DNA from: a virus
DNA length: 20,285 bases
Reading direction: 5' to 3' (one strand)
Virus record (IMG/VR): IMGVR_UViG_3300040815_002070
Span: 1-20,285 of that record
Each line of letters starts with the position of its first letter. The first letter of the stretch is position 1. The translations under genes and the position numbers were made by a program. Positions 9,001-20,060 of the stretch are shown here, piece by piece. Below the pieces are notes generated by a model. The model was not told where the DNA came from and ran no database searches. It was given only the letters and a program-made list of their open reading frames with translations.

Positions 9001-9245
9001 GGTTTACCCGAATCTGGATTTATAGTAGTCACTACAGGATCAAAACTGTAGTATTCTCTATTAGGTGCTGGTTGCTCTACAAAGGATGTATTGCTACTAC
9101 CTATTTCTCTTGGTGTCCCTATAAAGCCTTGTATATTTTCTATATTTGCTTTTGAAAATAATTGCTCAACTGTGCTTTCAAAGAAATTTTTATTAACACT
9201 AGTTTGGTGCTGTATAGGTAATAGATCAAAAAATTTGTTTGTCAT
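1..9245 (-). CDS. Giant tail/baseplate structural protein (gene-7 position), partial: C-terminus beyond window
   Basis: The frame starts with ATG at 9245 and stays open to the window edge in all stretches I read codon by codon, giving at least 3081 codons without its stop. The start shares a base with the gp6 stop (TAATG), so translation is probably coupled. The N-terminus reads MTNKFFDLLPIQHQ. Tryptophan/tyrosine-rich blocks follow: PWSRLNYWWHVNELRQP near residues 387-404, WEMFGYCKKPSWWDTEY near 1293-1310 and FGDIAPVEYAWRKSSHYP near 1383-1401. The second half is rich in T/N/S beta-strand segments, with a glycine turn NGGDGYASKP near 2032. I remember such W-rich blocks from giant virion proteins of marine T4-like phages, but could not check. 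The position right after gp6 matches T4 gene 7 (baseplate wedge initiator, about 1030 aa), yet this product is at least three times longer. A long tail-fibre or side-plate protein is the alternative. The reading frame is certain; the gp7 role is inferred. Confidence 0.9.
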   Translation of the reverse strand, partial: MTNKFFDLLPIQHQTSVNKNFFESTVEQLFSKANIENIQGFIGTPREIGSSNTSFVEQPAPNREYYSFDPVVTTINPDSGKPVNYVFYEDFLYDIRSKGGLIDNHDRLFKTNQYAFAPPINIDKLINYQDYYWYPTGPEVTEINGNANVQINIDNIQGLKSYTSPAGQELRNDMVVKFTGDHISNTSVLTKDTAYIVTGVGKGIQFILPGDSTSAYAEFSDFPLEQSISITYTQANSSSYYNLETTLPEDFVVTPGGDFKEYYRNLADSEASGAASASVHNNTRLYIGNLALKVGDAVAANVYYLGNNAQRTGNVVYLDVESLGNYLLPDSVQGTRNFALDDYHQTYIQPQLQWNIDTVYGWGVTPWGSESTQNQPDYMVMEKGAKNKNPWSRLNYWWHVNELRQPLKDNVTGFALPESAQRATRPILEFDRDIELYNWGNSFISKVDIIADKKKEDLEGLALGFPINSASGTANASIIFPQDDTAIAEKIYRIQDNSGTIQFVEDTSLSNLVVTNGQVYSITGTNIGLDYYWTGTSWKQAQQKIQINQEPLFNLYDSAGTKVDDPAKYPHSDFKGCPVFTYNTDKTSTKQTSYDAVLGANVVYQTSKFNSEPTFFNHLGNHTVNYKANLLANTSTIPGYLFYKDLQQDYKGNDNTRFKNNWHPISYPHQYRDFSNVETYFTNEVVKYEGQYFIANANISAGSFNISNFKYYEDDNSLYSKQYVEDVIIIDKVNSADKFFTTSASPHNNDIIVKLNDTALTINKDFAIRNSSTGIVINPTLNDVSLNNTGLGYEVGDILTLSIAGSNSNIAITVTDAESYDGNISNGGGQIKTISVSNYGLYSELVGHPGNITSIVTTASNNGHGVDATFNFTFNQTVTLKNTDVLNVKTFTKEGRKTTIDSYGFFEIPSALKYNPLNTEITETRLSDLIGHGNKLLLGQEGFSGKVTGNNNFKDTSKTFNVNDINIGQIDSDLLHSMYLSKNEDRNLINALRFGNDQYNNFKKKFISNLELYINNNDYLSQTNLEILDTVLKTIKSSKVTEGGFDLSYMVPIGTDYSNEEIVISNVSLQEYTFSNTVNIALDKNLYILQHNNTVLCADKDFTVDSYLPFDITLNNSITLAENDTLNLRIYEDSESADVPASLSKLGMFRAFQPQFMTDTSYQVNKDVILCHDGSYVIKQNDKIDDIILTFEQIIYSNIEEEYRNCEYIELNEYEIKPSFFCETDYSLVEYNKLLTTNFNKWNRQSKVDYRTNTVFDSTNEFTWNYASGPTEPGYWRGMYDYYYDTQTPTVTPWEMFGYCKKPSWWDTEYPTAITSSYTAFWNNVRDGYIPAGSRKGYWKRWARPTIYSYLPVDSSGNLRSPKEIVYTSLTGDSLNIDNLWAFGDIAPVEYAWRKSSHYPFAILEMLYLSRPGEFAKLFYDKRNLQRLSVQPEQLVDKTTGKRKLRQNFEPHGYKSTDNIITLRPGYTTLLYQYLSFYSLNINVEIGNPVKTLDTRLGHKFAGFVNSKQLNVFSESISTDGLSASQVLPKEDVTVNLHTSPFNSRNFYTGVKITKQAEGYSVSGFDTVSQYFDIIPSDVAGPFEGVQEGGTPADFSVFETLTSYLKDEIIKLGSVYYIAKQNISPGAFDSNMWTPLKSLPTIGGASGTVYQLGTGVTEKVYYDTVFQNAGKVFDFLISLSRKQKEIGFDFGEFDSSINSMNDWILAGKRFLFWSTENHEIGDSIKLSPLAETLKFVSTTGKISKINRQINEQYSIVDENNKAIIPEDCSIVREDNTITVSPIGNRIYGMLLHTELVEHAFVINNKTVFNDIINDNVLGIRQDRLEINTQRSRNWDGRYQAEGLVIVGDAVLPNFDTLIDSIRLYHDKDTTQLDPLKSQLAKGLLGYQTTNEYADIKIDDTIGFQYYKGLINQKGTANSLTSLIRSNVVNTNKNIEIFEEWAIKRGEFGDVYNHQSMDIKLEQDKFTRDNQQIEIIYPENVTGAVSNIFVFERNTTYYNVPTIEIDPPASGNAAQATAKLFANAQLESVTITNGGDGYASKPNVAVITGNIVISQFSDVLAFGLAGSNASVDLPLTGANAVTNVNIYDHTTESNLDIYLGNERSIDSVVELLNNKFTNANIANIVAYGDIDTETEKHLVTQVTKAGSNTRISTDRATITSNTSIEINTPVGSNAFVITNGASTLTLSNVDSITNTNPATVTLTTKTGFTPLQNGDTLTFVNHEPYSVLTSDILNKTYFVKATADSTIYELYTNETLTANVDATSWYNESVSGTDTHLQSVGAYRSAEADLVNVDFNYSTITGSGIRNTSYFAELSAFNNSYYAEAGTSNTQIKLYTDPALQIPLNTTALSKPFSDTNLANDFIQANVTVLGTGGDNRLFIKGTDFTIREVRLPGKLSDETTLEVLNIPAGRYQPTQRFPIRSANNTTTNDIIVSVDGKNVGTTYWSYDRGARTSITANASIVNDYNINPNNAFSIVLGGQNRFEDQNITRLNGLYPFAEIYIDGNKVNNTPDYDAFTLTNNLTETTISFSNASLYTDNFSIGSNITVIESGSVQFNNTFTADVPGKVLSIKSVANDTLIANTISKRTYERTKDILTDNKITIDIDDTETMLKRPSNSLQDGLWYRDNKQDYIVPNAGYVNRNKVNWESIDLPYFANLIGSGKVNIPNENDYLHLGKSENEDWNVFQLKKHGIESTTGNVSGAKNYIDNVNGRAMLFSDQRLSKWTDGNILGDKTNANFYDNIVVIKNANLSDTVLEWSNENFVFTPRVVYKGDYKPLKKINRGIVKIEPGHTKPITKVEPYKDQNYMARIYAEKSHPAPGLEFFTRASVIKDNLPNAHANSVLISPNSLAGLGVGDIVRFTGTQATAANLTLGKAYTVTGISERGLGGNPGAVDVDDPSKGFFTINEANVTGTDYASINSDCYVTYESDLDFNVNMKVKGLSGASTVLLEVGDTYNLNVSSYISNGLDIDFGLTSGERITNTNDFYVEDSSYAVANWNSSSKTFEISSNVTTQTAAITRPGFNEITLAAFGNSDGKGNSTLAGANSAIIDKGDFVQFTSVGNYSGNVYPVQSNDGNFIQIYD

Positions 9246-12200
9246 TAGTATCCACTTCCACTTGAACCACTGCTACTGCTACTGCTACTGCTACTGCTAC
9301 TGTTTGTTGTAGATGATTTATTAATTACGTTGCCTTTCAATTGTTTTAAATTTGCTGAAGATAGACTTTTAACTACTTCTACATTATCCACTGTTGCTGT
9401 AGAAAAGAATAATTCATCTGATGCCGCTCTAACTTGATATAAATCTCCAAATATAGATTCGGACTTACTAGGCACAATTACTACTGATGCTATTGCTTTA
9501 CCTAGTTCCTGATGAATGTACGCACTTAATTCTGAGAAATAAAATGTTTCACCAAAGTCCCAGTTTTCTACATTAAAATAAGTGTCAATTAATTCTAACA
9601 CCGCACTTCTAACTTCTGCATCTGTAGTTGTACTTCCTGGTAGTTTTACAACTTTAATTTTTGCTTGTAATTCTGGTTCTGCGTCATTGCCAAATAATAA
9701 TTTAAATTTACCACTGCTGTAAACTAATTGATCACTAACACTCTTAAATTCATCTAAGCCTGCAAAATCTTGTGCAAGTTGTTCTGAAGTTGGTGCACTA
9801 GGCAATATACTAGTACCGCCATTTTTATAACTTAGCATTGCTTGATAATACGATTTAGTAAGCATAAACATTTCAACAACATTGCTGATACTAGGATCTA
9901 TTCTAACATCACTTGGAGCAATGTGTTGCCATTCAAATGAACATTTTCTTGGATTTGCCTGTAATGTGTTTTGCTCAAAACTTCTACCTACTTTTACATT
10001 GTACTGGTTGTTTTCTGTTAGTACAATCATTTTAGGTGTTGTTAAGTCATTGATTAATTCATATACTTTAGGTAAAAGCGATCTTGGAAAAACTAATTTG
10101 TGATTAAGTTTACCTAAATTATTTTTTAGATATTTTTCTGCTACACTTAAATCTTTTACAATAATCAAATCAAAATCTGTAAATGGTGTTTTGTTATCTG
10201 GGTCACTACCTGGAGCAACTGTGTCTAATACATAATCAACTGATATTTCTGTTTCAGTTGCAAAATTTAATATTTTGAATTTTGCTGGTCTTTCGTATGT
10301 ATAGCCATCTAAGTCAGTGTATTGCTCAAAGAAAACAAAGTCTGTGCTACCTACAAACTTGTCAAATAAGTCTGGATCATCTGGAAAACCATCATAGTCG
10401 CTGTCGACAGGTTTAACAACAACTTTTGCCGGATCGGCAAAGCCGTCACCATATCTGTATGAATCCACAATTTCAAATTGCAGTGGTTTGTCTAATGACT
10501 CTTTGACGTTTTTATAAACTACCTGCAATTTATCTGCATGTTTAAATCCGTTCCATCTGCTACTTAAACTGTCAAAGTCTGAAATTTTTAAACTTGTGTT
10601 TGACGTCAAATCAATAAATCCTTCTGATGCGGAATCTCCTACCTCAAATGTAGTTGTGGTTGCATTACCTGTATAAGTTTTATAACTACTTGAACCTGTG
10701 TCGTAATTAACATAAGCAATATTACCGTTTGCTCCACCAATAATAGATGTACCAAATTTACTTAATGGTATAGTAATACCACTCGGCAATGCTGATAATT
10801 TTGCACTATTTAATTTTACCACTGCTTTACCAGTTGTTGCTGATATTGGATCTACTGCTATTGTTGTAGATACTGCTGGTGCAAAATCACCTTGGCTATA
10901 ATCTGCTGTGGGCGACACTGATGCTTCACCGTTGACCAGTAAACCAAAATTACTAATAAATCTTATTTCTAAATCTTTTGCTTTTGTGTCTCTGCTTCTT
11001 AAAATTATTTCTGGACTGTTTCCTACATTTGGAGTATATGTTGCATTTGTAGATTCTAATTGCCAACTATCACCTATATCATCTAAATTTGTATCAACCC
11101 AGTTATATGTTTCTACCAGTTCTGGTTTGAAGTTTGCTGTGGTTAATGCGATAGTATCCTTTAATACCCTTCCTGTTTTACTGTCAAATGTTTTTTCATC
11201 ACTGGAAAAATAAAATTTTATATCTTTGAGACTTTCAAATATAATTCTGGTACCTCTTGTAGTTACTGTGTAATTTGAAATATTTGTTGTACTGTTAGTA
11301 CTATTGTATTCAAATTTCATTAACCAACTAGCACCGCTGGTAAGATCCGGATTAAAGTCTGCATTTTTCTGTAAATTACTATTGTCTATAACATACCAGT
11401 GTGTAATATTACTTCCACCTGGTCTAAAATTATATCCTATACCAAAATCCTCTTTAGCCTTTATTCTTGTATCAAATGCGTTGCCTATATCTGTTTCTAG
11501 ACTATTAGAATTTAATGTAGGTATAATTTCTGTGGCTCTCCATGCATTTGGAATTTCTTTGTTTAATTTTACGACGCCTTCTGTGACACTTAGTAAATTT
11601 GTCGGAACGCCATTATTTGTAATACTTGTAATAGTTGCTAATTCTTCTTGTGTTGGATCGTTTGGATTTTTAAATTTTATATAAGAGCCGGCTTGTATAA
11701 TTCTATTTTCGTTTACACTATTGTTTAATGTAGTTCTTATGCCGCCATCTAATCTAGTAAAATAACCTGTGTTATTTTTATTTTTACTAGGCTGGGTAAC
11801 CCATGTGATATCTTTATTGTTTGATGTCAAGTCAAATGCTAATGCATCTAAGCCTTTATGTAATTTCCTATAATCATCGTATACAAAGTTTTGTAAATTT
11901 ACATCTTTAGTAATATTAGCAACATCCTCTTTTAAAATTTGCATTGCTGTTCTACTTGTACCAAATGTCAAATAAGTGTCTTTATTTTCTATGTCTTTGT
12001 ATAATGCCCCATCGTCTGCAAATGATGTGACACTACTAAATCTTCCTGTTGGGTCTTCGATATCAATATATCTACTATGACCTGCATGGGTTCTATTTGT
12101 AGATTTAAGTTTTAATATGTTTACACTTTGACTCAGTGGAAATACATTATAGTCTTGAGCACTGACCATTCTATTTTGTGTATAATATGTTTGTGGTGCT

Positions 12201-13456
12201 CTTCGTTTAATGCTTTGTAAAGTTTCTGCGGCTGAACCATTTGAAACTGTGCCTTTTAATGACATCCTTAGAGTGAGTCTGTGTAATTCACCTTTTCTGT
12301 TATAATAAGGTAATACTAATTCTTTGTTTTGAAAATCTGCTGGTCTAATAGATAAGTTTTCGCCAATGCTGGTTCTGTAATAAATTCTAAAAATTCCAGA
12401 AGGTATGTTTGCAAAATTACCGTCTGAGAATCTTATTCTCACACCGTCGTCAAATAAGTTGTCAATTGCATATAAGTTTCTGGATTCTAGACTAGTTGCA
12501 TTATATAATAAAGTCTGTCCTTGAAGATTGCTGACTTTTTGCCAAGTAAGTTGGTTAACAGCATTATTATCCATTTGATGCACAAATACATCTGTTTCGT
12601 TTATGTTAGCAACCGGTATATCTACTGTTCTGTTAGGCAATGCCCTTTCAAAAATATAATCTTCAAAACTTAATACACCCTGCTTAAACATCATAAAAAA
12701 TCCTGTATAAGGACTTTCTAAACCTCTTTTATCATTTCGATAACAAATTCTCATTTGACTATAAATGTCTGGTTGTGCTTCTTTGAAAACACCGTTTTCT
12801 ATATGTGTACTAACAAATTCAAAAGGTACACTAACACCATTTACAGTTGCACTGGTTGGGAATATAGGGGTTGAGCCTATTTCATTATTGAACCCATATA
12901 TCTGTGTAGCAATACCGCCTACTGTTCCTTCAACAATAGGTTTTGTAAAAGGGTTTGTTACAGAAAATGCACTATTTAAAACTGTAATAAATTGATCAAA
13001 ACTATTTGCATTTGTTGGATCATTCCAGTCTATTCTGATATCTTGTAAACTTTCGCCCGAAGCGTCTAGTAAAGGTTCGTCTGTTTCTATACTATCAATT
13101 TTTACTAATCCACTTGCTGGTATATTTCTTTTAGGAGCATAACCTAGCATATCTGCTAAACGTAAAATACTGTCTCTACTTTCTGCGGTAGCAAGGAAGT
13201 TTTCCCTGGTATTTAAATCTGCTCTGAATGATAAACTTTGCGAAAGATATGCTAATAATTCTATAATAGCAATAAATTCAGAACTCTCAATGTAGTCATT
13301 GAAAGATTCTGGATAATTTTCTCTTATGTAATTAAGCATAGATGTACGCATTGTACTAAAATCATATGCCTTGAAACTTACTTGGGTGAATGCCTGATAG
13401 GCTAATTCCCAGTCCTCTGCGGCAAATAGATTTTGATTTCTATTGCTAATTGACAT
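9245..13456 (-). CDS. gp6: Baseplate wedge protein gp6 (baseplate J-like), enlarged
   Basis: This 1403-residue protein is a wedge component that joins with gp7, gp25 and gp53 around the hub in T4-type baseplates. Support comes from its place directly after gp25 and from an N-terminal region (about 58-105, including EFIAIIELLAYLSQSLSF and RADLNTRENFL) that resembles gp6/baseplate-J N-termini. A C-terminal core contains SNVVEMFMLTKSYYQAML (about 1193-1210) and FYFSELSAYIHQELGKAI (about 1304-1321). T4 gp6 is about 660 aa, so this version carries some 700 extra residues, mostly beta-rich sequence between the two ends. Residues 1018-1029 (DSDYDGFPDDPD) look like a calcium-binding aspartate loop. 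The tail ends in eleven serines (1386-1396) and GSSGSGY. The start overlaps the gp25 stop as TAATG and is preceded by GGAG at 7 nt spacing. Confidence 0.92.
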   Translation of the reverse strand: MSISNRNQNLFAAEDWELAYQAFTQVSFKAYDFSTMRTSMLNYIRENYPESFNDYIESSEFIAIIELLAYLSQSLSFRADLNTRENFLATAESRDSILRLADMLGYAPKRNIPASGLVKIDSIETDEPLLDASGESLQDIRIDWNDPTNANSFDQFITVLNSAFSVTNPFTKPIVEGTVGGIATQIYGFNNEIGSTPIFPTSATVNGVSVPFEFVSTHIENGVFKEAQPDIYSQMRICYRNDKRGLESPYTGFFMMFKQGVLSFEDYIFERALPNRTVDIPVANINETDVFVHQMDNNAVNQLTWQKVSNLQGQTLLYNATSLESRNLYAIDNLFDDGVRIRFSDGNFANIPSGIFRIYYRTSIGENLSIRPADFQNKELVLPYYNRKGELHRLTLRMSLKGTVSNGSAAETLQSIKRRAPQTYYTQNRMVSAQDYNVFPLSQSVNILKLKSTNRTHAGHSRYIDIEDPTGRFSSVTSFADDGALYKDIENKDTYLTFGTSRTAMQILKEDVANITKDVNLQNFVYDDYRKLHKGLDALAFDLTSNNKDITWVTQPSKNKNNTGYFTRLDGGIRTTLNNSVNENRIIQAGSYIKFKNPNDPTQEELATITSITNNGVPTNLLSVTEGVVKLNKEIPNAWRATEIIPTLNSNSLETDIGNAFDTRIKAKEDFGIGYNFRPGGSNITHWYVIDNSNLQKNADFNPDLTSGASWLMKFEYNSTNSTTNISNYTVTTRGTRIIFESLKDIKFYFSSDEKTFDSKTGRVLKDTIALTTANFKPELVETYNWVDTNLDDIGDSWQLESTNATYTPNVGNSPEIILRSRDTKAKDLEIRFISNFGLLVNGEASVSPTADYSQGDFAPAVSTTIAVDPISATTGKAVVKLNSAKLSALPSGITIPLSKFGTSIIGGANGNIAYVNYDTGSSSYKTYTGNATTTTFEVGDSASEGFIDLTSNTSLKISDFDSLSSRWNGFKHADKLQVVYKNVKESLDKPLQFEIVDSYRYGDGFADPAKVVVKPVDSDYDGFPDDPDLFDKFVGSTDFVFFEQYTDLDGYTYERPAKFKILNFATETEISVDYVLDTVAPGSDPDNKTPFTDFDLIIVKDLSVAEKYLKNNLGKLNHKLVFPRSLLPKVYELINDLTTPKMIVLTENNQYNVKVGRSFEQNTLQANPRKCSFEWQHIAPSDVRIDPSISNVVEMFMLTKSYYQAMLSYKNGGTSILPSAPTSEQLAQDFAGLDEFKSVSDQLVYSSGKFKLLFGNDAEPELQAKIKVVKLPGSTTTDAEVRSAVLELIDTYFNVENWDFGETFYFSELSAYIHQELGKAIASVVIVPSKSESIFGDLYQVRAASDELFFSTATVDNVEVVKSLSSANLKQLKGNVINKSSTTNSSSSSSSSSSSGSSGSGY
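9271..9300. repeat. Hexanucleotide tandem repeat (TGCTAC)x5 in gp6 3' end
   Basis: Five perfect copies of TGCTAC on the plus strand read as alternating AGC/AGT serine codons on the gp6 strand. They encode most of the eleven-serine run near the C-terminus. Gain or loss of a unit would keep the frame and change the serine linker by two residues per copy. Confidence 0.95.
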
Positions 13457-13827
13457 TATGTATCTCCATTAAATTCTCTTTCTAACCTAACCTCTAATAC
13501 ATCTTGACTTTGATCTACATTATATTCTAAATAAAGTTCTACTTGTAAAAAATGATCTGTATTTGTAATTTTTACATCAAGTAATTCTACTCTTGGGTCA
13601 TTACCAACTATAGTGTTGCATTCTTCTTGTACATCTTGCATTGTTAGATTATCAAACGGCTCCATTAGAACATCGTGTATAATACTACCATATTCTGGTC
13701 TCATAACTCTTTCCCCTTTACGAGTCTGAAAATGATTTAATAAATCTTGTTTAACTAAATCTAAATCCGTAAGTGTGTAAGGTGGTTTTTTCTTGTTATC
13801 TGTACTGAATCCAATAAATGTTGCCAT
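13456..13827 (-). CDS. gp25: Baseplate wedge protein gp25 (gpW/gp25 family)
   Basis: At 123 residues it is close to T4 gp25 (132 aa), the inner wedge protein that contacts the hub and sheath initiation complex and is related to the contractile-system sheath-base protein TssE. The family signature is clear: LVKQDLLNHFQTRKGERVM (24-42) followed by RPEYGS (43-48), with the conserved arginine/glycine turn and acidic/aromatic P-E-Y-G, then DPRVELLDV (77-85) and a final beta-hairpin. It begins MATFIGFSTDN and overlaps gp6 by one base (TAATG). No Shine-Dalgarno sequence is visible before the ATG. Instead a GATAAATA box ends only 5 nt upstream, so the mRNA may be leaderless if the box is a real late promoter. 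The next internal methionine is M42, inside the conserved core, so a later start is unlikely. Confidence 0.95.
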   Translation of the reverse strand: MATFIGFSTDNKKKPPYTLTDLDLVKQDLLNHFQTRKGERVMRPEYGSIIHDVLMEPFDNLTMQDVQEECNTIVGNDPRVELLDVKITNTDHFLQVELYLEYNVDQSQDVLEVRLEREFNGDT

Positions 13828-13904: not shown

Positions 13905-14489
13905 CTACTTTTGAAGTTTTGCCGTTCCGGCTTGTATCACTGCGGCTAAAACATCATCTGGAGCATTTTGCACCCACTTATTAACTTCCTGTTGCTGATT
14001 AGAGTCTAAATTATCACCTTTCACATTTGGTATATTTGTATTATCGTTAGAGGAAGGCTGTGTCTGTGCATCAGCATAAGCCAAGTTTAAAAATATCGCA
14101 CTTTTGTTTTCGCCATCAAATTGCACTGGAGCATCTGAGGATGATTGCTTTGCAAGATTTTGCAATGGCGGATTGGCTTTTAAAAAATCAAATGTGCTAG
14201 TTTGGTTCTTCAGTCTAGGAGATGTTGCCATCCATTGTTTGAATTGTTCAATATTGAGTGTCTCAGGTGGTTGATCCGGATGATTTTGTACCAACCATTT
14301 CTGATATTTTGTAGCAATAACATTTGCGGCTTTCATGCCTTTTGCTTTAACGTCACCGCGAATGTTGGAAATTTTTGCACGATTACTGCCTAATTTACTT
14401 CCAATTTTACTGACAACATTTTTTGCACCTTGCTTCATTCGGTCAACTGCACCGAATTCAACTTCGTTTATTACTTCATCAATTCTCAT
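13905..14489 (-). CDS. Hypothetical phage protein, 194 aa, basic N-terminus, probably structural
   Basis: I do not recognise a family with certainty. The N-terminus MRIDEVINEVEFGAVDRMKQ is followed by a lysine/arginine-rich, glycine-spaced stretch (18-52), a short W-containing segment (KYQKWLVQNH, 61-70), a second one (EQFKQWMATSP, 81-91), a polar linker rich in N, S, Q and D (115-170), and a C-terminal helix-like end (KWVQNAPDDVLAAVIQAGTA, 171-190). No signal peptide or membrane segment is seen. Short proteins opening with MRIDE or similar are, as I recall, common in marine T4-like genomes, sometimes annotated as structural. It has a strong AGGAG ribosome site (14497-14501) 7 nt before the ATG and a GATAAATA box just upstream, so late expression alongside the baseplate genes is likely. 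Confidence 0.88.
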   Translation of the reverse strand: MRIDEVINEVEFGAVDRMKQGAKNVVSKIGSKLGSNRAKISNIRGDVKAKGMKAANVIATKYQKWLVQNHPDQPPETLNIEQFKQWMATSPRLKNQTSTFDFLKANPPLQNLAKQSSSDAPVQFDGENKSAIFLNLAYADAQTQPSSNDNTNIPNVKGDNLDSNQQQEVNKWVQNAPDDVLAAVIQAGTAKLQK

Positions 14490-14530: not shown

Positions 14531-14564
14531 ATTAAATAATTACAAGTACAACTATTACTAGAGG
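14531..14564 (+). promoter_or_regulatory. Candidate promoter box ATTAAATA (14531-14538) and GAGG ribosome site (14561-14564) for the plus-strand island
   Basis: ATTAAATA differs from NATAAATA at one position. It lies in the 80-bp divergent gap between the 194-residue gene and the nucleosidase gene, the only place a promoter for the plus-strand genes can sit without lying in a coding region. The box ends 31 nt before the ATG at 14570. GAGG, followed by AAATT, gives a good ribosome site. AT-rich sequence makes chance matches common, so confidence is limited. Confidence 0.4.
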
Positions 14565-14569
14565 AAATT

Positions 14570-15115
14570 ATGAAATATGTTTTAGCAGTTGCACTGGCAG
14601 ACGAACTCGAAGGATTGCAAGGCAACTATAACACAATTATTACAGGTGTTGGTAAGATTAACGCCACACTTAAACTCACTGAGTATTTGACAAATAATCC
14701 AGATACAGAACTGGTTATCAATTATGGTACTGCTGGAGGAGTAGACCCTAATATGAAAGGCATGTTGCACATTGGAAAATTTGTACAAGCAGATATGGAT
14801 TGTAGAGAATTTGGCTTTGACAAATATCAAACACCATTTGAAACAAATACCCAAGAAATTGTGGTTGACCACAAAGGATTTACATGTTATACTCAAGATA
14901 AGTTTGCTACAACTAAACCTGATGGTTATTGCAATGTAGTTGACATGGAGGCTTATGCAATCGCTAAAGTGTGTATGCATTTTGGCGTAGACTTTAAATG
15001 TTTAAAGTTTATAAGCGATATAATCGGACAAGGAGATCAGACATCCGAATGGCAGGCGAATAAAGCATTAGGTGTCGAGATGTTCGAGTCCACATTAAAG
15101 GATTTAATAAAATAA
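14570..15115 (+). CDS. MTA/SAH-nucleosidase-like enzyme (PNP/UDP phosphorylase superfamily), compact
   Basis: The 181-residue product resembles 5'-methylthioadenosine/S-adenosylhomocysteine nucleosidase, which hydrolyses the N-glycosidic bond to release adenine. Residues 1-13 align with the E. coli enzyme's start and keep Glu12, the residue that positions the attacking water. Next come ITGVGKINA (24-32; family TGIGKVAA), INYGTAGG (50-57; family INTGSAGG), YTQDKF (107-112), VVDMEAYAIAKVC (123-135; family VEMEA with the substrate-binding Glu, here E127), and FISDI (147-151), whose Asp150 matches the catalytic Asp197. All key catalytic positions therefore appear present. E. coli MTAN is 232 aa. 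The missing segment is mainly the loop/hairpin after residue 17. No signal peptide is seen, so it is probably cytosolic. The start has a good GAGG site. It ends 2 nt before the receptor gene, so the two are co-transcribed. Substrate could also be another nucleoside or nucleotide. Confidence 0.88.
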   Translation: MKYVLAVALADELEGLQGNYNTIITGVGKINATLKLTEYLTNNPDTELVINYGTAGGVDPNMKGMLHIGKFVQADMDCREFGFDKYQTPFETNTQEIVVDHKGFTCYTQDKFATTKPDGYCNVVDMEAYAIAKVCMHFGVDFKCLKFISDIIGQGDQTSEWQANKALGVEMFESTLKDLIK

Positions 15116-15117
15116 AA

Positions 15118-17103
15118 ATGAACGAATTTGATAAAAACTTTCACATAAACTTTAGTCCACTTTACATTGCCGCAGTTGTGATGTTTTTTCTATTATGGGC
15201 AGTAGAGGCTAAAGCAGACGAGATAGAAGAAATTGTTGTAACTGCTCAACAAGAAAAAGTGGTCAAAGCAGACCCAATAACTAGCGGTAGTTTAATAAGT
15301 GCTATTATGCCAGCCTTTACTTGGAATCCAGGTGGCTATGGAGGCTTTGTAGGTTTCAATGAAAGAGGTGCTCAAACATCTCACACTTCAGTTTATGTGA
15401 ATGGTATCCCGGCAAATGATCCAGGGGCAAGTTGGTATGACTTTGGACATGACTTTGCAAGTGGACAAACAGTAAAAGTAATTACTGGTGCAAATGGTGT
15501 TATATATGGCTCAGGCAGTATGGCAGGATCAGTACTTATACAGGATACAATAGAAAGAGGTATTACACTTAGAGTAGAAGATGGTATAAACTATGTCAGA
15601 GTTGCTCCAATAGATCAGTTAGAGTTTAGTACGGTTAAAGATGGCATGGATAGTGTTCGTAATGACAATGAAGAGGAAGATAATTACGAAAACAAAACTG
15701 CTAGGTTTAATGTAGATGCAGGAGACTTTACTATTGTAGGTAAGTTTACTGAATACGAATACGACTATGACAACTGTTATGATTATAATTGGGGTCAAAG
15801 CAATGACTGTTTACAAGACGGCCAAAGATATAATATTGCTATTAGAAATGATTATATTACAATAGGTAGAAACTATAATACTGCTGAGTATTTCACAGTA
15901 GAAGATCCTACATATTTAAATGAGGGTTATAGAGATTATTTTAGAATAGGCAATCAAGTAGAACTCAGTCAAAGTTTAAATGTTGCATTTGGTATAGATG
16001 TAGAAAAACAGTATTACAATACAAGCAGTTGGCAAAATGTGGAAGGATCTGAAACAGTTTTAGTAAGTGATACAAGACCAGGTTCCTTTACAGATGAAAA
16101 TTTAACATATAATGATGGTACATTATTACCTTTGTGGAACGGTACAATAGAACCTGATCTTGATAATGCATATGAAGTTATACAAGGTAACGGTGTATAT
16201 ACTCTAACACAAATAGATGAAAAGTATTCAGACGAAAATGGAGGTATATACTTTCAAGCCAATGCTAACTTTATACTAAATTATAACTTTGGTATTAGAC
16301 TGGGCAACGATGATCAGAATGCTCTTAGACTGGGTATTGAAAAAGGCGACTGGTTCTTTAATATAGGAAACAGTTTTAGAAAGCCTAATCTATATGAAAA
16401 GTTTGGCGATGGATATGTACAAGGTAATGAAGAACTAGAACCTGAAAAAGGTGTAGGCATTGAATTAGGATATGGTGTGCTAAGTGTGTTTATGTATGAT
16501 TTTGAAGAATCAATAGAGTATGTTCCAGGATATTATACAGACAATATTACAACATCATTGGAATTAGATGCTGAAGCATCTGTTAATACAGATGGTACAT
16601 ATGGTGGTTGTGTTTTAGATCCTAATTATACAGCATCAGATGGAATGCCATTAGGTTGTGCATATGAAATTGTAGAAGATAATAATCCAGTTTACACTAT
16701 GGCTACATATTCTAACACAGGAGAGTACACCACAGCAGGTGTTAGATATGCAAATAACTTTGGTCCTGTTTTTATAATGTTAAAATATACTGATACAGAC
16801 CAAACTAGAGTACCTAAATTTGCTGGTGTATTACAATACAGCGAAGACTTTTTTGATGTAAACTTTAGATTAAAGTACGCATTTAATTTAGATAGAGCAC
16901 CTGGTCCCTATGATGTATTAGAAGAAGGGCAGGAGTATTTGGAAGATCTAAATAAGTTAAACTTATATGTAACCAAAGTGTTTACAAATGGCTTAACACT
17001 TTCTTTTAAAGCAGAAAACATAACAGATGAAATTGTAGAGGTTGTTCCTTTTTATAATACACAAGGTAGAGAAATTTACTTGACATTACATTATAACTGG
17101 TAA
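15118..17103 (+). CDS. TonB-dependent outer-membrane receptor, complete
   Basis: This 661-residue protein has every part of a TonB-dependent receptor, which imports a scarce ligand (such as iron chelates, cobalamin or sugars) across the outer membrane. Residues 12-33 form a signal peptide ending AKA, with cleavage before Asp34. A TonB box EEIVVTAQQ (37-45) sits at the mature N-terminus. The plug (about 46-150) carries NERGAQTSHTSVYVNGIP (81-98) and VKVITGANGVIYGSGSMAG (119-137). The barrel (about 150-661) includes the family signature FRKPNLYEKFG (420-430) with GNEELEPEKGVGIELGY (436-452), then KAENITDE (631-638) and a final strand ending in tryptophan. Cysteine pairs C220/C231 and C498/C514 may close extracellular loops. 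The length is normal for the smaller BtuB/siderophore class. The gene is intact and follows the nucleosidase by 2 nt; AAAGGA (15097-15102) is a distant ribosome site. Its ligand cannot be read from the sequence. Confidence 0.93.
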   Translation: MNEFDKNFHINFSPLYIAAVVMFFLLWAVEAKADEIEEIVVTAQQEKVVKADPITSGSLISAIMPAFTWNPGGYGGFVGFNERGAQTSHTSVYVNGIPANDPGASWYDFGHDFASGQTVKVITGANGVIYGSGSMAGSVLIQDTIERGITLRVEDGINYVRVAPIDQLEFSTVKDGMDSVRNDNEEEDNYENKTARFNVDAGDFTIVGKFTEYEYDYDNCYDYNWGQSNDCLQDGQRYNIAIRNDYITIGRNYNTAEYFTVEDPTYLNEGYRDYFRIGNQVELSQSLNVAFGIDVEKQYYNTSSWQNVEGSETVLVSDTRPGSFTDENLTYNDGTLLPLWNGTIEPDLDNAYEVIQGNGVYTLTQIDEKYSDENGGIYFQANANFILNYNFGIRLGNDDQNALRLGIEKGDWFFNIGNSFRKPNLYEKFGDGYVQGNEELEPEKGVGIELGYGVLSVFMYDFEESIEYVPGYYTDNITTSLELDAEASVNTDGTYGGCVLDPNYTASDGMPLGCAYEIVEDNNPVYTMATYSNTGEYTTAGVRYANNFGPVFIMLKYTDTDQTRVPKFAGVLQYSEDFFDVNFRLKYAFNLDRAPGPYDVLEEGQEYLEDLNKLNLYVTKVFTNGLTLSFKAENITDEIVEVVPFYNTQGREIYLTLHYNW

Positions 17104-17140: not shown

Positions 17141-17175
17141 AGTAAATACAAGTGTATCATTTAACAACATAGGAC
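17141..17175 (+). promoter_or_regulatory. Candidate promoter box AGTAAATA (17141-17148) and AGGAC ribosome site (17171-17175)
   Basis: The 76-bp gap after the receptor gene holds AGTAAATA, one mismatch from NATAAATA. Exactly 31 nt separate it from the ATG at 17180, the same distance as the box before the nucleosidase gene, and both are followed by ACAAGT within a few bases. AGGAC lies 4 nt before the ATG. The shared geometry supports a real signal, but AT-rich chance similarity is possible. No terminator hairpin is visible in this gap. Confidence 0.4.
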
Positions 17176-17179
17176 TAAA

Positions 17180-17443
17180 ATGAAAACTGATAAAATTATT
17201 AAGAATATTGTATCTACTTTTAAAGATCTAGAGGAAAAGGCCAGTCACATTAATTCGGCAAGTGGTAAGACTGTAATTCACTCTATGATACAAAGAGATA
17301 GGAGAGGCAAGTTTGATAGTTTGGGATTTTATAATTCTAAAACTAAAAGATATGCCTTAGTTTTTATAAGAGATTACATTGCAAGAAATGTAGATGTAAT
17401 TCCTGAACTGGATGACATGAAAAGAGTTATCACTGTAAAATAA
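17180..17443 (+). CDS. Hypothetical protein, 87 aa
   Basis: I do not recognise this family. The product is small and basic, with an N-terminal helix-like stretch (KTDKIIKNIVSTFKDLEEKA, 2-21), a central polar region with an arginine cluster (QRDRRGKF, 38-45), a beta-like segment ending in hydrophobic residues (RYALVFIRDYIA, 57-68), and an acidic turn near the end (PELDDMKR, 75-82). No signal peptide, membrane segment or cysteine is seen. The start is backed by AGGAC 4 nt upstream, and its stop overlaps the next start as TAATG, so the pair is probably translated together. Its place after the receptor gene suggests the same accessory module, but a separate promoter box may drive it. Confidence 0.78.
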   Translation: MKTDKIIKNIVSTFKDLEEKASHINSASGKTVIHSMIQRDRRGKFDSLGFYNSKTKRYALVFIRDYIARNVDVIPELDDMKRVITVK

Positions 17444-17649
17444 TGACCGACCACTTAACAAAAAAATTCACAAACAATACCTTAGAAGAAGATTTAAGAA
17501 TTATGCTCGTTGAAAAAAACAACGAGTGTAATGCACTTAGAGAAGAAATAAAAATGCTTAAAGTGTCTGTTGCTGAAGAGTCAGATGCAAAGTATAGAGC
17601 ATTTGTTAAAATTTCTGATTTACAAAGAGAATTAAATTCGACTAAATAG
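17443..17649 (+). CDS. Small coiled-coil protein, 68 aa
   Basis: No family is recognised. Residues 14-66 are strongly helical and charged, with leucine, isoleucine and valine at roughly heptad spacing through LEEDLRIMLVEKNNE, NALREEIKMLKVSV and KISDLQRELN. This suggests a dimeric coiled coil. There is one cysteine (C29) and no signal peptide. The start overlaps the preceding stop (TAATG). The last 18 bp overlap the end of the lysozyme-like gene on the other strand, so the two genes converge with no spacer. It could act as a small oligomerising partner of the 87-residue protein; that is inference from position only. Confidence 0.72.
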   Translation: MTDHLTKKFTNNTLEEDLRIMLVEKNNECNALREEIKMLKVSVAEESDAKYRAFVKISDLQRELNSTK

Positions 17650-18450
17650 GTTGGCTTCGGCTACACGTCTATTGTATAATAATGTGCTGATTCCATTACC
17701 TCTTTTAATAGGTATTTCAGTAAACTCCATAAAGTATGTAGCACAATTATAATTTTCACTATTGAGTGCTTTTATTAATTTGCTAGTTGTAAATTTTTTC
17801 ATACCTATATCAAATGCTAGAGATATTAATGCAACTGTTTGATTTGTATTAAGCGGTACTTTGACTCTGTCTACTACCACACTAAAAGCACGGGTCAAAT
17901 CAAGTTTATACAGCCTATCGATAAATTCTGGTTTTGCACCATTTACTAGACTATAAACATAAAAATTATTTATTTGGTCATATACAGCAATTGATTTTAC
18001 TGCTAATTCATAATCAACTCTACCATTTTTAATAATAGTTGCTCCTTGTAAGTAAGCATGATTATTTCTAATAATTTTTCTTACATCAGGATGATCTAAA
18101 TCCAGTTTACTATAATCATTGAATGCTATCATTTTGTTTGATATTTCTAGAGAACTCATTTTATGAGATATACCAATGTATGTTTCGTTTTGTATTTCAG
18201 TTGGCACAAGATATGTATTAAAATTACCAATTATAAAATCATTTGCATGTATTAAAATTTGAGTCGTATCTACTAAATTAGGCAGAATAAATTTAGGTAC
18301 TACTGTATTTGTTTTAGAATATACTCCAGTAAGATAATCTGTGCCTTCAAAATGTGATCCTATATAAAAACCACCTGGGTTACAATAACTTAACGGTACA
18401 TTATCCGATGGATCCAACTGCCCTATATTTAGATCATCTATGTATGCCAT
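17632..18450 (-). CDS. Baseplate-associated protein with lysozyme-like (GH24-type) C-terminus, catalytic motif not seen
   Basis: I chose the ATG at 18450 because it overlaps the gp5 stop as TAATG, like other junctions here, and has AAGGA upstream. The frame is also open to an ATG at 18492, which would add 14 residues inside gp5. Numbering below is from 18450 (272 aa). Residues about 203-235 (TNQTVALISLAFDIGMKKF, then TTSKLIKALN) resemble the phage-lysozyme core NQ-x-ALVSFAFNVG...S-LL-LN. Arginines and EANLF near 261-269 fit the lysozyme end. The N-terminal 130 residues are unfamiliar (polar and beta-rich). The usual catalytic Glu-x8-Asp-x5-Thr arrangement is not visible. It may be a degenerate cell-wall-binding or plug domain, or a diverged active enzyme. 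Being coupled to the spike gene suggests a place at the baseplate hub. Confidence 0.8.
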   Translation of the reverse strand: MAYIDDLNIGQLDPSDNVPLSYCNPGGFYIGSHFEGTDYLTGVYSKTNTVVPKFILPNLVDTTQILIHANDFIIGNFNTYLVPTEIQNETYIGISHKMSSLEISNKMIAFNDYSKLDLDHPDVRKIIRNNHAYLQGATIIKNGRVDYELAVKSIAVYDQINNFYVYSLVNGAKPEFIDRLYKLDLTRAFSVVVDRVKVPLNTNQTVALISLAFDIGMKKFTTSKLIKALNSENYNCATYFMEFTEIPIKRGNGISTLLYNRRVAEANLFSRI

Positions 18451-20060
18451 TATTTGTTTGTCCTTGAAGGACTTGGTTCTATACCAGGCCATCTTGTAAT
18501 AATAGTATTAACTTTTTTATCAAATAAAAGCAATGGCGTTAATGGACTTTTGCCTTGTTCTGCTCTTTTAGGATAACCACCTGATAGTATACCTGCTAAT
18601 TCAAACGATAGTAATGTGTTTGTTGTTTCGGTTGTTTTTATGCCACTCATGTTAGGTGCAACAGGCAAAGGTGGCAAAGTCGGCAATGTTGTTGTTTGAA
18701 TATCAACTGTGTCGCCAGCATTGATGTATGTTTTTGTTAGACCCATTATATGTGTATGAGTTGTTGAAAATATATCTACATCTCCCATTGACTTGATTTG
18801 TAATGTAGGTTCAGAGGGCGGATTATTTGCAGAGGCTGGTGCGGCTATTTCTATTTGTGTGCCTGCCATATGTACTTTGTTATCACCAAATAATTGTAAA
18901 CTACCTGGCATTGTGGTACCAGCGGTTGTAAATAGTCTAGGTCTTGCTTCTATACTTATAGCATTAGAATACATATTAATATCTTTCACACCTTCGATGT
19001 TCACACTACCGTTATTTAATACACTCTGATATACTGGATTTAAGTATGCTAATTCTTCTACATCTACAATACCTTTTTGTGTTTCGTTAGGGTCGTTTGG
19101 ATGTGGATAGTTGTTAGCGGCTTTGATATTAACATTTTGTCCTGCTTCTATATTTACATCCTTGTCCGCTCTGAGGTTCATATCACCTGATGTTCTTACA
19201 TTGTAACTGCCTGTGCCGTAAATGTCTATGTTACCATCGGCATCTATTTCTATATGCCCTGTACCTGACTTATTAGATATGTATATTAAATTTTCTGCGT
19301 CATTGAGTACTATTTGATTTCCGCCACCGGTTCGTATTCTTATAAATGGATTATCGTTACTATCATCCATTACAAATTGATGTCCAGCATGTCTTAGTCC
19401 TGGATCTTTAGGATTCTTGGGACCTGGTGTTAATATACCATATACTTCACTTGCGCCTTCCCGCCTAGCACCACTAGTACTTTGCCCTCTTATAAAATCA
19501 TCTATCAGTCCTTGTGAAAAAATAACACTTTCTAATTCGTGCATTGATCTGTCATCTGCTTTTACTTTGACACTTTTAACAGTACCGCTGTATTCTACAT
19601 TATGATCCTTGATATTTGCAGACATGTTTGCTTCATTAACAGGTGTCACTCCACCTATGGATTTTCCTGCTGGAATACCTGGTACCATAAAATTTCTATT
19701 TGTTTGAAATAAGCACCCTAAGATTATTCCGGAGAGTTGGCCTTCGTATTCATAAAAACCTACTACAACTTGATTACCATTATCAGGTGGTCTCATCCAC
19801 ATTCCATAACTGGTTTGTGCAACGTCAGGTGCATTTTTATCGCCTGTGCCTCTCTCAGGAGTTGCACCAGCAAATGGTGATGTCCATATACAATCAAATA
19901 AGGCACTAGTACTTTTGTTTGTGCCTGTTAATTCTGGTATATGCACTAAGAGTATTCCATTTCTAGAAGGATCGTCTGCACTAATTACTGTGCCAAAATA
20001 CAGCGACAAACCTTTACTTGCATTGGATGTGATTTTTTCTTTTATGCGGTTTGGTATCAT
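18450..20060 (-). CDS. gp5: Baseplate hub/spike protein, gp5-like (OB-fold plus beta-helix), no lysozyme insert
   Basis: This 536-residue protein fits the gp5/VgrG-type central spike that pierces the outer membrane on tail contraction. Residues 18-120 read as an OB-fold: LYFGTVISADDPSRNGILLV, then GMWMRPPDNGNQVVVGFYEY and GIILGCLF. From about 225 to 455 there are short repeating beta-strands with the spike rhythm, for example DMNLRADKDVNIEAGQNVNI (293-312), then more strands to DTVDIQTTT (450-458). T4 gp5 (575 aa) carries a lysozyme domain between OB-fold and beta-helix. Here residues 130-225 are a linker with no lysozyme motifs, while a lysozyme-like domain occurs in the next gene. The C-terminus (460-536) is proline-rich and unfamiliar. 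The gene overlaps the next by one base. Upstream, GTTAAATA ends 5 nt before the ATG. Confidence 0.9.
   Translation of the reverse strand: MIPNRIKEKITSNASKGLSLYFGTVISADDPSRNGILLVHIPELTGTNKSTSALFDCIWTSPFAGATPERGTGDKNAPDVAQTSYGMWMRPPDNGNQVVVGFYEYEGQLSGIILGCLFQTNRNFMVPGIPAGKSIGGVTPVNEANMSANIKDHNVEYSGTVKSVKVKADDRSMHELESVIFSQGLIDDFIRGQSTSGARREGASEVYGILTPGPKNPKDPGLRHAGHQFVMDDSNDNPFIRIRTGGGNQIVLNDAENLIYISNKSGTGHIEIDADGNIDIYGTGSYNVRTSGDMNLRADKDVNIEAGQNVNIKAANNYPHPNDPNETQKGIVDVEELAYLNPVYQSVLNNGSVNIEGVKDINMYSNAISIEARPRLFTTAGTTMPGSLQLFGDNKVHMAGTQIEIAAPASANNPPSEPTLQIKSMGDVDIFSTTHTHIMGLTKTYINAGDTVDIQTTTLPTLPPLPVAPNMSGIKTTETTNTLLSFELAGILSGGYPKRAEQGKSPLTPLLLFDKKVNTIITRWPGIEPSPSRTNK

Follow-up and report, generated by a model that had tools for sequence, protein, structure and literature searches.

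A TonB-dependent receptor family of predicted BtuB shape in T4-like jumbo phages and its apparent exchange between them

TonB-dependent receptors (TBDRs) are nutrient gates and phage doorways both. Among the phage genes that alter the receptors shown by a cell are Llp of T5 and the Lc porin of PA-2. Cor, the exclusion protein of phi80 and N15, acts on FhuA (PMC11436027). TBDRs themselves have previously been annotated in phages: the megaphage Mar_Mega_1 and LR745206 carry the TBDR SusC, which in the authors' view might raise carbohydrate uptake (PMC9723777), and an annotated TBDR of the pelagiphage Polarivirus skadi was read by its authors as pointing to the receptor used for adsorption (PMC10504331). 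Here, we describe a TBDR gene at 15118-17103 on the plus strand of IMG/VR record IMGVR_UViG_3300040815_002070, whose 20,285 nucleotides (nt) form the window analysed throughout. Its open reading frame, Pfam plug, relatives and structural model indicate a complete 661-residue receptor, a BtuB-like plugged barrel. The reading that we favour, with a probability of roughly 0.5, is that T4-like jumbo phages of one clade have a working BtuB-fold TonB-dependent transporter of their own, most likely for a scarce micronutrient, with cobalamin the leading candidate.

Like the Mar_Mega_1 gene, the present family encodes a TBDR in very large phages; the Mar_Mega_1 receptor is of SusC type, however, and the portion of its account considered here does not survey genomic sites, allele exchange or promoters (PMC9723777). 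The sole full-length match to our receptor in the viral structure library BFVD is a SusC of an uncultured marine phage (A0A8D9FQQ5, 805 residues, E 3.1e-13), only 12% identical and, at a guess, the Mar_Mega_1 protein. Skadi is a small phage of HTVC010P type. As in the window, its TBDR gene lies among phage structural genes (PMC10504331). The exclusion proteins are comparable in that a phage gene alters which receptor the cell displays, but they act by blocking a receptor of the host or by supplying a porin, whereas the present phages bring a whole TonB-type receptor. Literature searches for phage-coded TBDRs brought up neither the present family nor its two genomic homes, traded alleles and two kinds of promoter, and further reports may exist.

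The receptor gene opens with ATG and is undamaged. Pfam Plug (PF07715) matches residues 45-137 above cut-off (E 3e-08) and is matched by all 67 non-redundant relatives, whereas the Pfam barrel model is matched by just one of the 67, leaving the barrel hardly visible to sequence libraries. An unnamed PHROG of 760 positions, phrog_5687, matches 62 of the 67 members, its best window stretch covering only residues 79-141. Residues 1-33 (15118-15216) form a putative export leader of the KNF type (MNEFDKNFHINFSPLY..), hydrophobic on inspection and replaced in some relatives by an interchangeable FFHKH-type leader. IEEIVVTAQQ (residues 36-45, 15223-15252), conserved in the 67-member alignment, is the segment that we take, by resemblance to known motifs, to be the TonB box, and the pattern (I/V)EE(V/I)xV recurs in nearly all variants listed. 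The plug domain spans residues 46-147 (15253-15558) according to Pfam and the alignment, and the barrel residues 148-661 (15559-17100), ending in Tyr-Asn-Trp, according to the AlphaFold model, VIA-align and the alignment. A conserved Cys-Cys loop, DNCYDYNWGQSNDC (residues 218-231, 15769-15810), would lie on the extracellular side, judging by strand order in the model. All these features are on the plus strand. The guanine-cytosine fraction of 0.33-0.36 in the gene, against 0.29-0.38 in the window, agrees with the earlier description of an intact gene as AT-rich as its neighbours. A host-type gene with virus genes on both flanks and under selection, it resembles an auxiliary metabolic gene in these respects.

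An AlphaFold2 model built on the 67-sequence alignment reached a predicted local distance difference test score (pLDDT) of 84.5 and a predicted template modelling score of 0.76, an earlier model from only 14 sequences having been poor (pLDDT 46.1). Foldseek against the PDB placed BtuB, the cobalamin transporter of Gram-negative bacteria, on top (E 2.3e-18, template modelling score 0.71 on the target). VIA-align superimposed the model onto BtuB bound to TonB (2gsk_A) with Z 35.0 and a root mean square deviation of 2.4 Å over 496 residues, spanning plug and barrel (model residues 37-661) at 21% identity; the best non-cobalamin receptor among the matches listed was FyuA (Z 31.2). The barrel counts 22 strands after broken strands in the DSSP string were joined by hand, and the strand and loop numbering used below is a manual reading of that string. 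In a profile search of the PDB, BtuB was the sole molecule at E≤0.1 (best E 0.0038); hhalign to E. coli BtuB gave a probability of 97.5% over 466 columns, and the B12-receptor model TIGR01779 is matched at E≤0.01 by 44 of the 67 members (best 1.7e-11). The receptor is thus predicted to be a complete plugged barrel of BtuB shape, and the original prediction of a real TBDR with plug and barrel is borne out by the plug matches, TonB box, model and BtuB similarity together. It resembles BtuB in its plug and barrel fold, TonB box and terminal aromatic residue. It differs in being phage-coded, in its conserved Cys pair within a loop and in a sequence only ~21-25% identical; it misses the curated NCBIfam BtuB cut-offs by far and is therefore not filed as BtuB.

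The ratio of nonsynonymous to synonymous substitution (dN/dS, Nei-Gojobori, 18 pairs) ranges from 0.078 to 0.353 over the whole gene and from 0.027 to 0.29 over TonB box and plug, the two highest whole-gene values coming from one near-identical pair and one pair differing mostly by a swapped leader. These ratios point to strong purifying selection on the gene. Terminal residues were tallied over the 106 loci with a stop codon inside the locus (L074 was excluded, and 14 others run off the contig): Trp ends the protein in 103, and Tyr in L071. Mean entropy in the 67-member alignment is 0.75 bits at residues 34-45, which include the TonB box, 0.94 in the plug and 1.76 in the leader. The outer loops as placed by the model are well conserved (L2 0.96, L3 1.01, L6 0.58, L7 1.04, L9 0.95, L10 1.16 and L11 1.03), several strands being more variable than they are (b3 2.13, b18 1.79 and b21 1.83). 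On this model-based topology, loop conservation fits a transporter with a shared ligand better than it fits a free decoy.

The family was surveyed by two profile scans of IMG/VR, which returned 211 relatives among 249 pattern hits and, with a more distant alignment, 176 among 200, the best 80 being used in each case; pooling with one earlier search and removal of duplicates (19 in one round) left 85 + 36 new = 121 contigs. On these at least 121 contigs, some of which show one flank only, the receptor gene always occupies one of two places. Site A, the baseplate cluster seen in the window, accounts for 23 of the 121 loci, and site B, a replication block of gp32, UvsX, an AAA protein and the UvsW helicase, for 98; six site-B loci (L052-L057) hold the receptor a few genes farther upstream within the block. 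Receptor identity spans 43-100% among the best 80 of the 211 relatives. G030 (250,519 bases), the sole long contig covering both regions, carries a single receptor, which lies at site B; its site A keeps a relative of the window's 68-residue cassette gene beside an unrelated 208-residue gene, with neither receptor nor nucleosidase.

A scan based on gp25 of the window (best 80 of at least 598 relatives) yielded 14 loci with gp25 identity of at least 80%; two are cut, and the 12 that cover the site, mostly on contigs already known, all carry the receptor. At gp25 identities of 58% or less (66 of the best 80), no receptor occurs within the locus, not all of these loci reaching the site. A UvsW-based scan from five receptor-bearing loci (best 80 of 376, a sample biased to receptor-bearing relatives) gave 70 loci with the receptor, eight without and two too short to judge. 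The receptor profile found no match in five isolated relatives, SCTP-2, Atu_ph07, Deifobo, Phosso and Vibrio 2.275.O, with G030 as positive control. The junctions of the window recur in L001-L006, contigs with six different IMG numbers, and such identity across many contigs, together with the receptor in all 12 site-covering loci of the gp25 scan, makes a chimera or assembly error very unlikely. Recent capture from a host is rejected as well, given the receptor tree, the dN/dS values and the site and leader changes described below, and the proposed long residence stands on the 121 contigs, their range of identity, purifying selection and two conserved sites. Placement inside a baseplate cluster, as first described, is correct for the window and applies, as a general home, to the rarer of the two sites among the loci found.

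In the window, the receptor belongs to a plus-strand cassette comprising a nucleosidase-like gene, the receptor and two small genes, set between T4-like baseplate genes on the opposite strand; it forms a separate unit with the nucleosidase-like gene and is not part of a baseplate operon. The first gene (14570-15115, 181 residues) stops 2 nt short of the receptor gene and resembles methylthioadenosine/S-adenosylhomocysteine (MTA/SAH) nucleosidases (Pfam PNP_UDP_1 4.5e-13; an NCBIfam nucleosidase model 5.2e-22, under cut-off; PDB MTA/SAH nucleosidases 5.4e-09). The two small genes have no assigned function: one of 87 residues (17180-17443), conserved at site A, has a weak PHROG match (0.0059) and no match in Pfam or NCBIfam scans, and the other is the 68-residue gene (17443-17649). 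On the minus strand, the left flank holds a 194-residue gene without assigned function, known from the open reading frame list and relatives (13905-14489), baseplate wedge gp25 (13456-13827; Pfam GPW_gp25 3.9e-11) and a gp6-like baseplate wedge protein of 1403 residues (9245-13456; phrog_10646, 1056.8 bits). The C-terminus of the latter is a serine run encoded by an AGC/AGT-type repeat (9245-9312). The right flank, also on the minus strand, holds a phage lysozyme (17632-18492; Pfam Phage_lysozyme 4e-12) and the baseplate hub (18450-20060; phrog_13211 2.4e-27).

The gp6-like protein is 35-41% identical to those of PA5oct, SCTP-2, Atu_ph07, CBB and others (30 of 78 records listed), and the UvsX of one site-B locus is 54-65% identical to that of the same jumbo group (30 of 2698 records listed). 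By these sequence comparisons the phage is related to the T4-like jumbo myoviruses of the PA5oct/Atu_ph07/Rak2-like group, in support of the T4-like phage first proposed. Against the 200-kb mark for jumbo genomes, one relative contig measures 250,519 bases and the window's own record 20,285. G030 also encodes envelope-type proteins, namely CsgF (curli secretion), FecR-domain, plastocyanin/azurin-type, EF-hand and DUF481 proteins, together with an FG-GAP-repeat protein that begins like a lipoprotein; the envelope-type genes are located at L093:8694-13670, L089:3741-4519, L099:1847-2530 and L098:3900-6335.

The two homes carry distinct promoter motifs. At site B, a consensus host-type sigma-70 promoter, TTGAC(A/T)-N16/17-TATAAT, precedes the receptor in 82 of the 89 loci with 200 nt upstream; L052-L057, placed elsewhere in the block, make up six of the seven loci without it. 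As the loci are related, the figure reflects conservation, and the 82 cases do not count as independent. By eye, many of the listed sequences have a GC-rich hairpin with a T-rich tail ahead of this promoter. G030 contains 22 promoters of this type where base shuffles predict 1.7, which marks them as a promoter class of the phage. The same pattern search found no sigma-70-type promoter in the window, whose cassette has TAAATA elements on the plus strand at 14533-14538, ahead of the nucleosidase-receptor pair (in 11 of 13 site-A loci inspected), and at 17143-17148, ahead of the 87-residue gene (in 13 of 13). The T4 late promoter is TATAAATA. TAAATA occurs within 60 nt upstream of 16 of 61 genes in G002, 17 of 66 in G022, 18 of 60 in G028 and 68 of 224 in G030, against 2.8, 2.5, 2.5 and 10.1 expected and opposite-strand counts of 5, 3, 5 and 19. 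By analogy with T4 promoter biology, the receptor would be expressed early at site B and late at site A.

Several searches looked for a bacterial source. Pattern scans of genome contigs gave 69 and 45 hits and no relative, each scan being weak in resting on two short peptide patterns. The window receptor had no match in the phage collection at E 1e-5; the receptor of locus L083 had none among plasmid records and only two phage-collection records, at E 4. A more distant and more BtuB-like member (L328:2369-3985; TIGR01779 4.4e-15) offers a useful bridge to bacterial donors: it matched 51 plasmid records at 22-25% identity in the 15 listed, led by BtuB genes (24-25%), which are the top bacterial sequence match of a family member. 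Against the phage collection, L328 matched nine records at E≤1, the best of which resemble bacterial chromosome contigs, as judged from the feature table of one. One record titled Acinetobacter phage MD-2021a (L175, CAKLQH020000002.1) looks like a bacterial chromosome in the stretch examined (trp genes, btuB, ydiU and baeR), which makes its phage label doubtful.

In the transporter reading, we infer that the receptor would be transcribed as its own unit during infection, from the sigma-70 promoter at site B or the late-type TAAATA at site A; its leader would direct export, and insertion in the host outer membrane would follow. Powered by host TonB, it would raise the infected cell's uptake of a scarce micronutrient, perhaps cobalamin fed into the methionine/S-adenosylmethionine (SAM) cycle. 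Cobalamin as ligand is a guess; it leads on three counts, since BtuB has the closest fold, BtuB genes are the closest bacterial sequences found for one member, and methionine/SAM genes are present in the phages. The MTA/SAH-nucleosidase-like gene stands beside the receptor at site A, and MetK (methionine adenosyltransferase) and adenine phosphoribosyltransferase (APRT) are encoded near it at site B; together, these enzymes would recycle and make SAM, and host MetH would need B12. In the site-B locus L021 (12756-15807), MetK, over cut-off, and APRT are accompanied by a weakly NadR-like protein. Use of B12 by the phage's own ribonucleotide reductase is unlikely in G030: the large chain, present in 7 of 20 contigs with its class read in G030 alone, there has an ATP cone beside a small chain and reads as class I, a class that does not use B12.

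A number of observations weigh against this reading. The window receptor scores only 19.9 of 599.7 bits against TIGR01779 and 20.3 of 836 bits against NF007926, both B12-receptor models, and a haemoglobin/transferrin receptor model fits it as well as the BtuB model does (0.00016). For the calcium- and cobalamin-binding residues of BtuB loops L2-L3, the hhalign alignment to E. coli BtuB sets the phage loop YDYDNCY on the BtuB loop YGYDNRTNYD, the aligned Asp222 is not conserved and no provable conserved match to the BtuB aspartates emerges. A cobalamin riboswitch, frequent though not general upstream of BtuB genes and so a further difference from BtuB, is absent from the eight loci scanned (0 Rfam matches). 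Strands b11, b13 and b14 (0.71-0.82 bits) are as conserved as the outer loops, L4, a loop of two residues, is variable at 2.20 bits, and long insertions set copies of L5 and L8 apart. The class I-like G030 reductase would give no use for B12, late-type expression at site A would leave little time for feeding, two of the 106 receptor copies appear broken, and the frequent allele exchange described next is not expected from simple uptake.

Comparison of loci indicates, at the sequence level, that the receptor gene moves between phages as a module. On the receptor tree (74 rows), genomic site must change five times, where shuffles average 15.8, the starred branches forcing five, and a quick tree of 95 bodies again gives five. 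The leader type (KNF or FFHKH) changes 11 times on a body tree built without leaders; L014 and L018 have near-identical bodies (barrel dN 0.002) and unrelated leaders. A DUF6491 protein at L032:8001-8465 shares the receptors' KNF leader (MNEFDKNF..), hinting at a leader module common to exported phage proteins. The flanks of L191 and L193 align by blastn at 95.3% over 9,099 and 97.1% over 3,021 bases, reaching into both gene ends, whereas their receptors share just 28-76% identity per 300-base window, that of L193 being 97% identical to the receptor of L040, a more distant phage. L019 and L047 agree at 98% in UvsX and 99% in UvsW but at 63% in the receptor, and L086-type phages resemble the window at 95% in the hub and 89% in gp25 but at 45-55% in the receptor. 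Rank correlations of pairwise identity, given without p-values because pairs are not independent, are 0.67-0.94 among the other site-A genes and 0.18-0.45 with the receptor; at site B they are 0.16-0.62 for the receptor and 0.16-0.38 for the APRT gene, which is mosaic too.

Conflict at the cell surface accounts better for this pattern, making surface remodelling the main rival: the phage receptor would dilute, replace or outcompete a host TBDR used by other phages or bacteriocins, and alleles would be traded because common ones are targeted. We regard this as possible, if on balance unlikely. The receptor is the outlier of its site-A neighbourhood, the mismatched receptors of L191 and L193 and the distant receptors of the otherwise close L086-type phages count in its favour, and the host-type promoter at site B suits it. 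TBDRs are well-known phage receptors, and Cor already shows a phage protein acting on FhuA (PMC11436027). Exclusion alone, however, would not need the conservation seen in the TonB box and most ligand-side loops, only L5, L8 and the short L4 varying strongly, and the exchange may be plain homologous recombination through conserved gene ends; the APRT gene at site B is equally mosaic. Uptake and surface remodelling may operate together. A doubtful, tentatively offered extension is that a shared pool of receptor alleles, traded by recombination through two fixed slots, redresses the infected cell for competition between phages while the receptor doubles as a transporter; such a system would follow the logic of serotype conversion, but by way of a TonB-type receptor.

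The original prediction listed increased uptake, a block to superinfection, a decoy and carriage for the next host as functions; the first two remain in the readings above, while conservation of the TonB box and ligand-side loops disfavours a mere decoy or passenger. A receptor shed in debris or vesicles at lysis, absorbing competing phages or bacteriocins, would suit the late-type promoter at site A and the adjoining lysozyme, but the host-type promoter at most site-B loci and the conserved TonB box render it improbable. Slightly less probable still is a recombination-prone gene that is useless to the phage and carried for its own sake. It would account for the eight receptor-less UvsW loci, where the AAA gene and uvsW lie 98-491 nt apart (~100 nt in six), for the five isolates without receptor and for the two broken copies; dN/dS far below 1, the intact look of 104 out of the 106 copies that have a stop codon, promoter motifs and two separate homes all speak against it. 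In those two copies, where sequencing error is possible, L009:8001-9971 stops ~5 residues early and L060:7668-8825 has an in-frame stop after 385 residues, close to the contig end. A barrel built into the tail or baseplate, as baseplate flanks at site A and the Skadi gene between tail tube and capsid genes (PMC10504331) might suggest, is very improbable, since 98 of 121 loci lie in a replication block away from virion genes and since leader, TonB box and terminal Trp all point to the outer membrane.

The strong selection on this family, combined with swapping between phages, suggests remodelling of the infected cell's surface by these phages. If a phage TBDR family is large, under selection and traded freely, some phages would be rebuilding the host outer membrane during infection. 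Linked to phage-carried SAM metabolism genes, the receptor family is a testable case for phage-driven vitamin uptake or for surface-based competition between phages.

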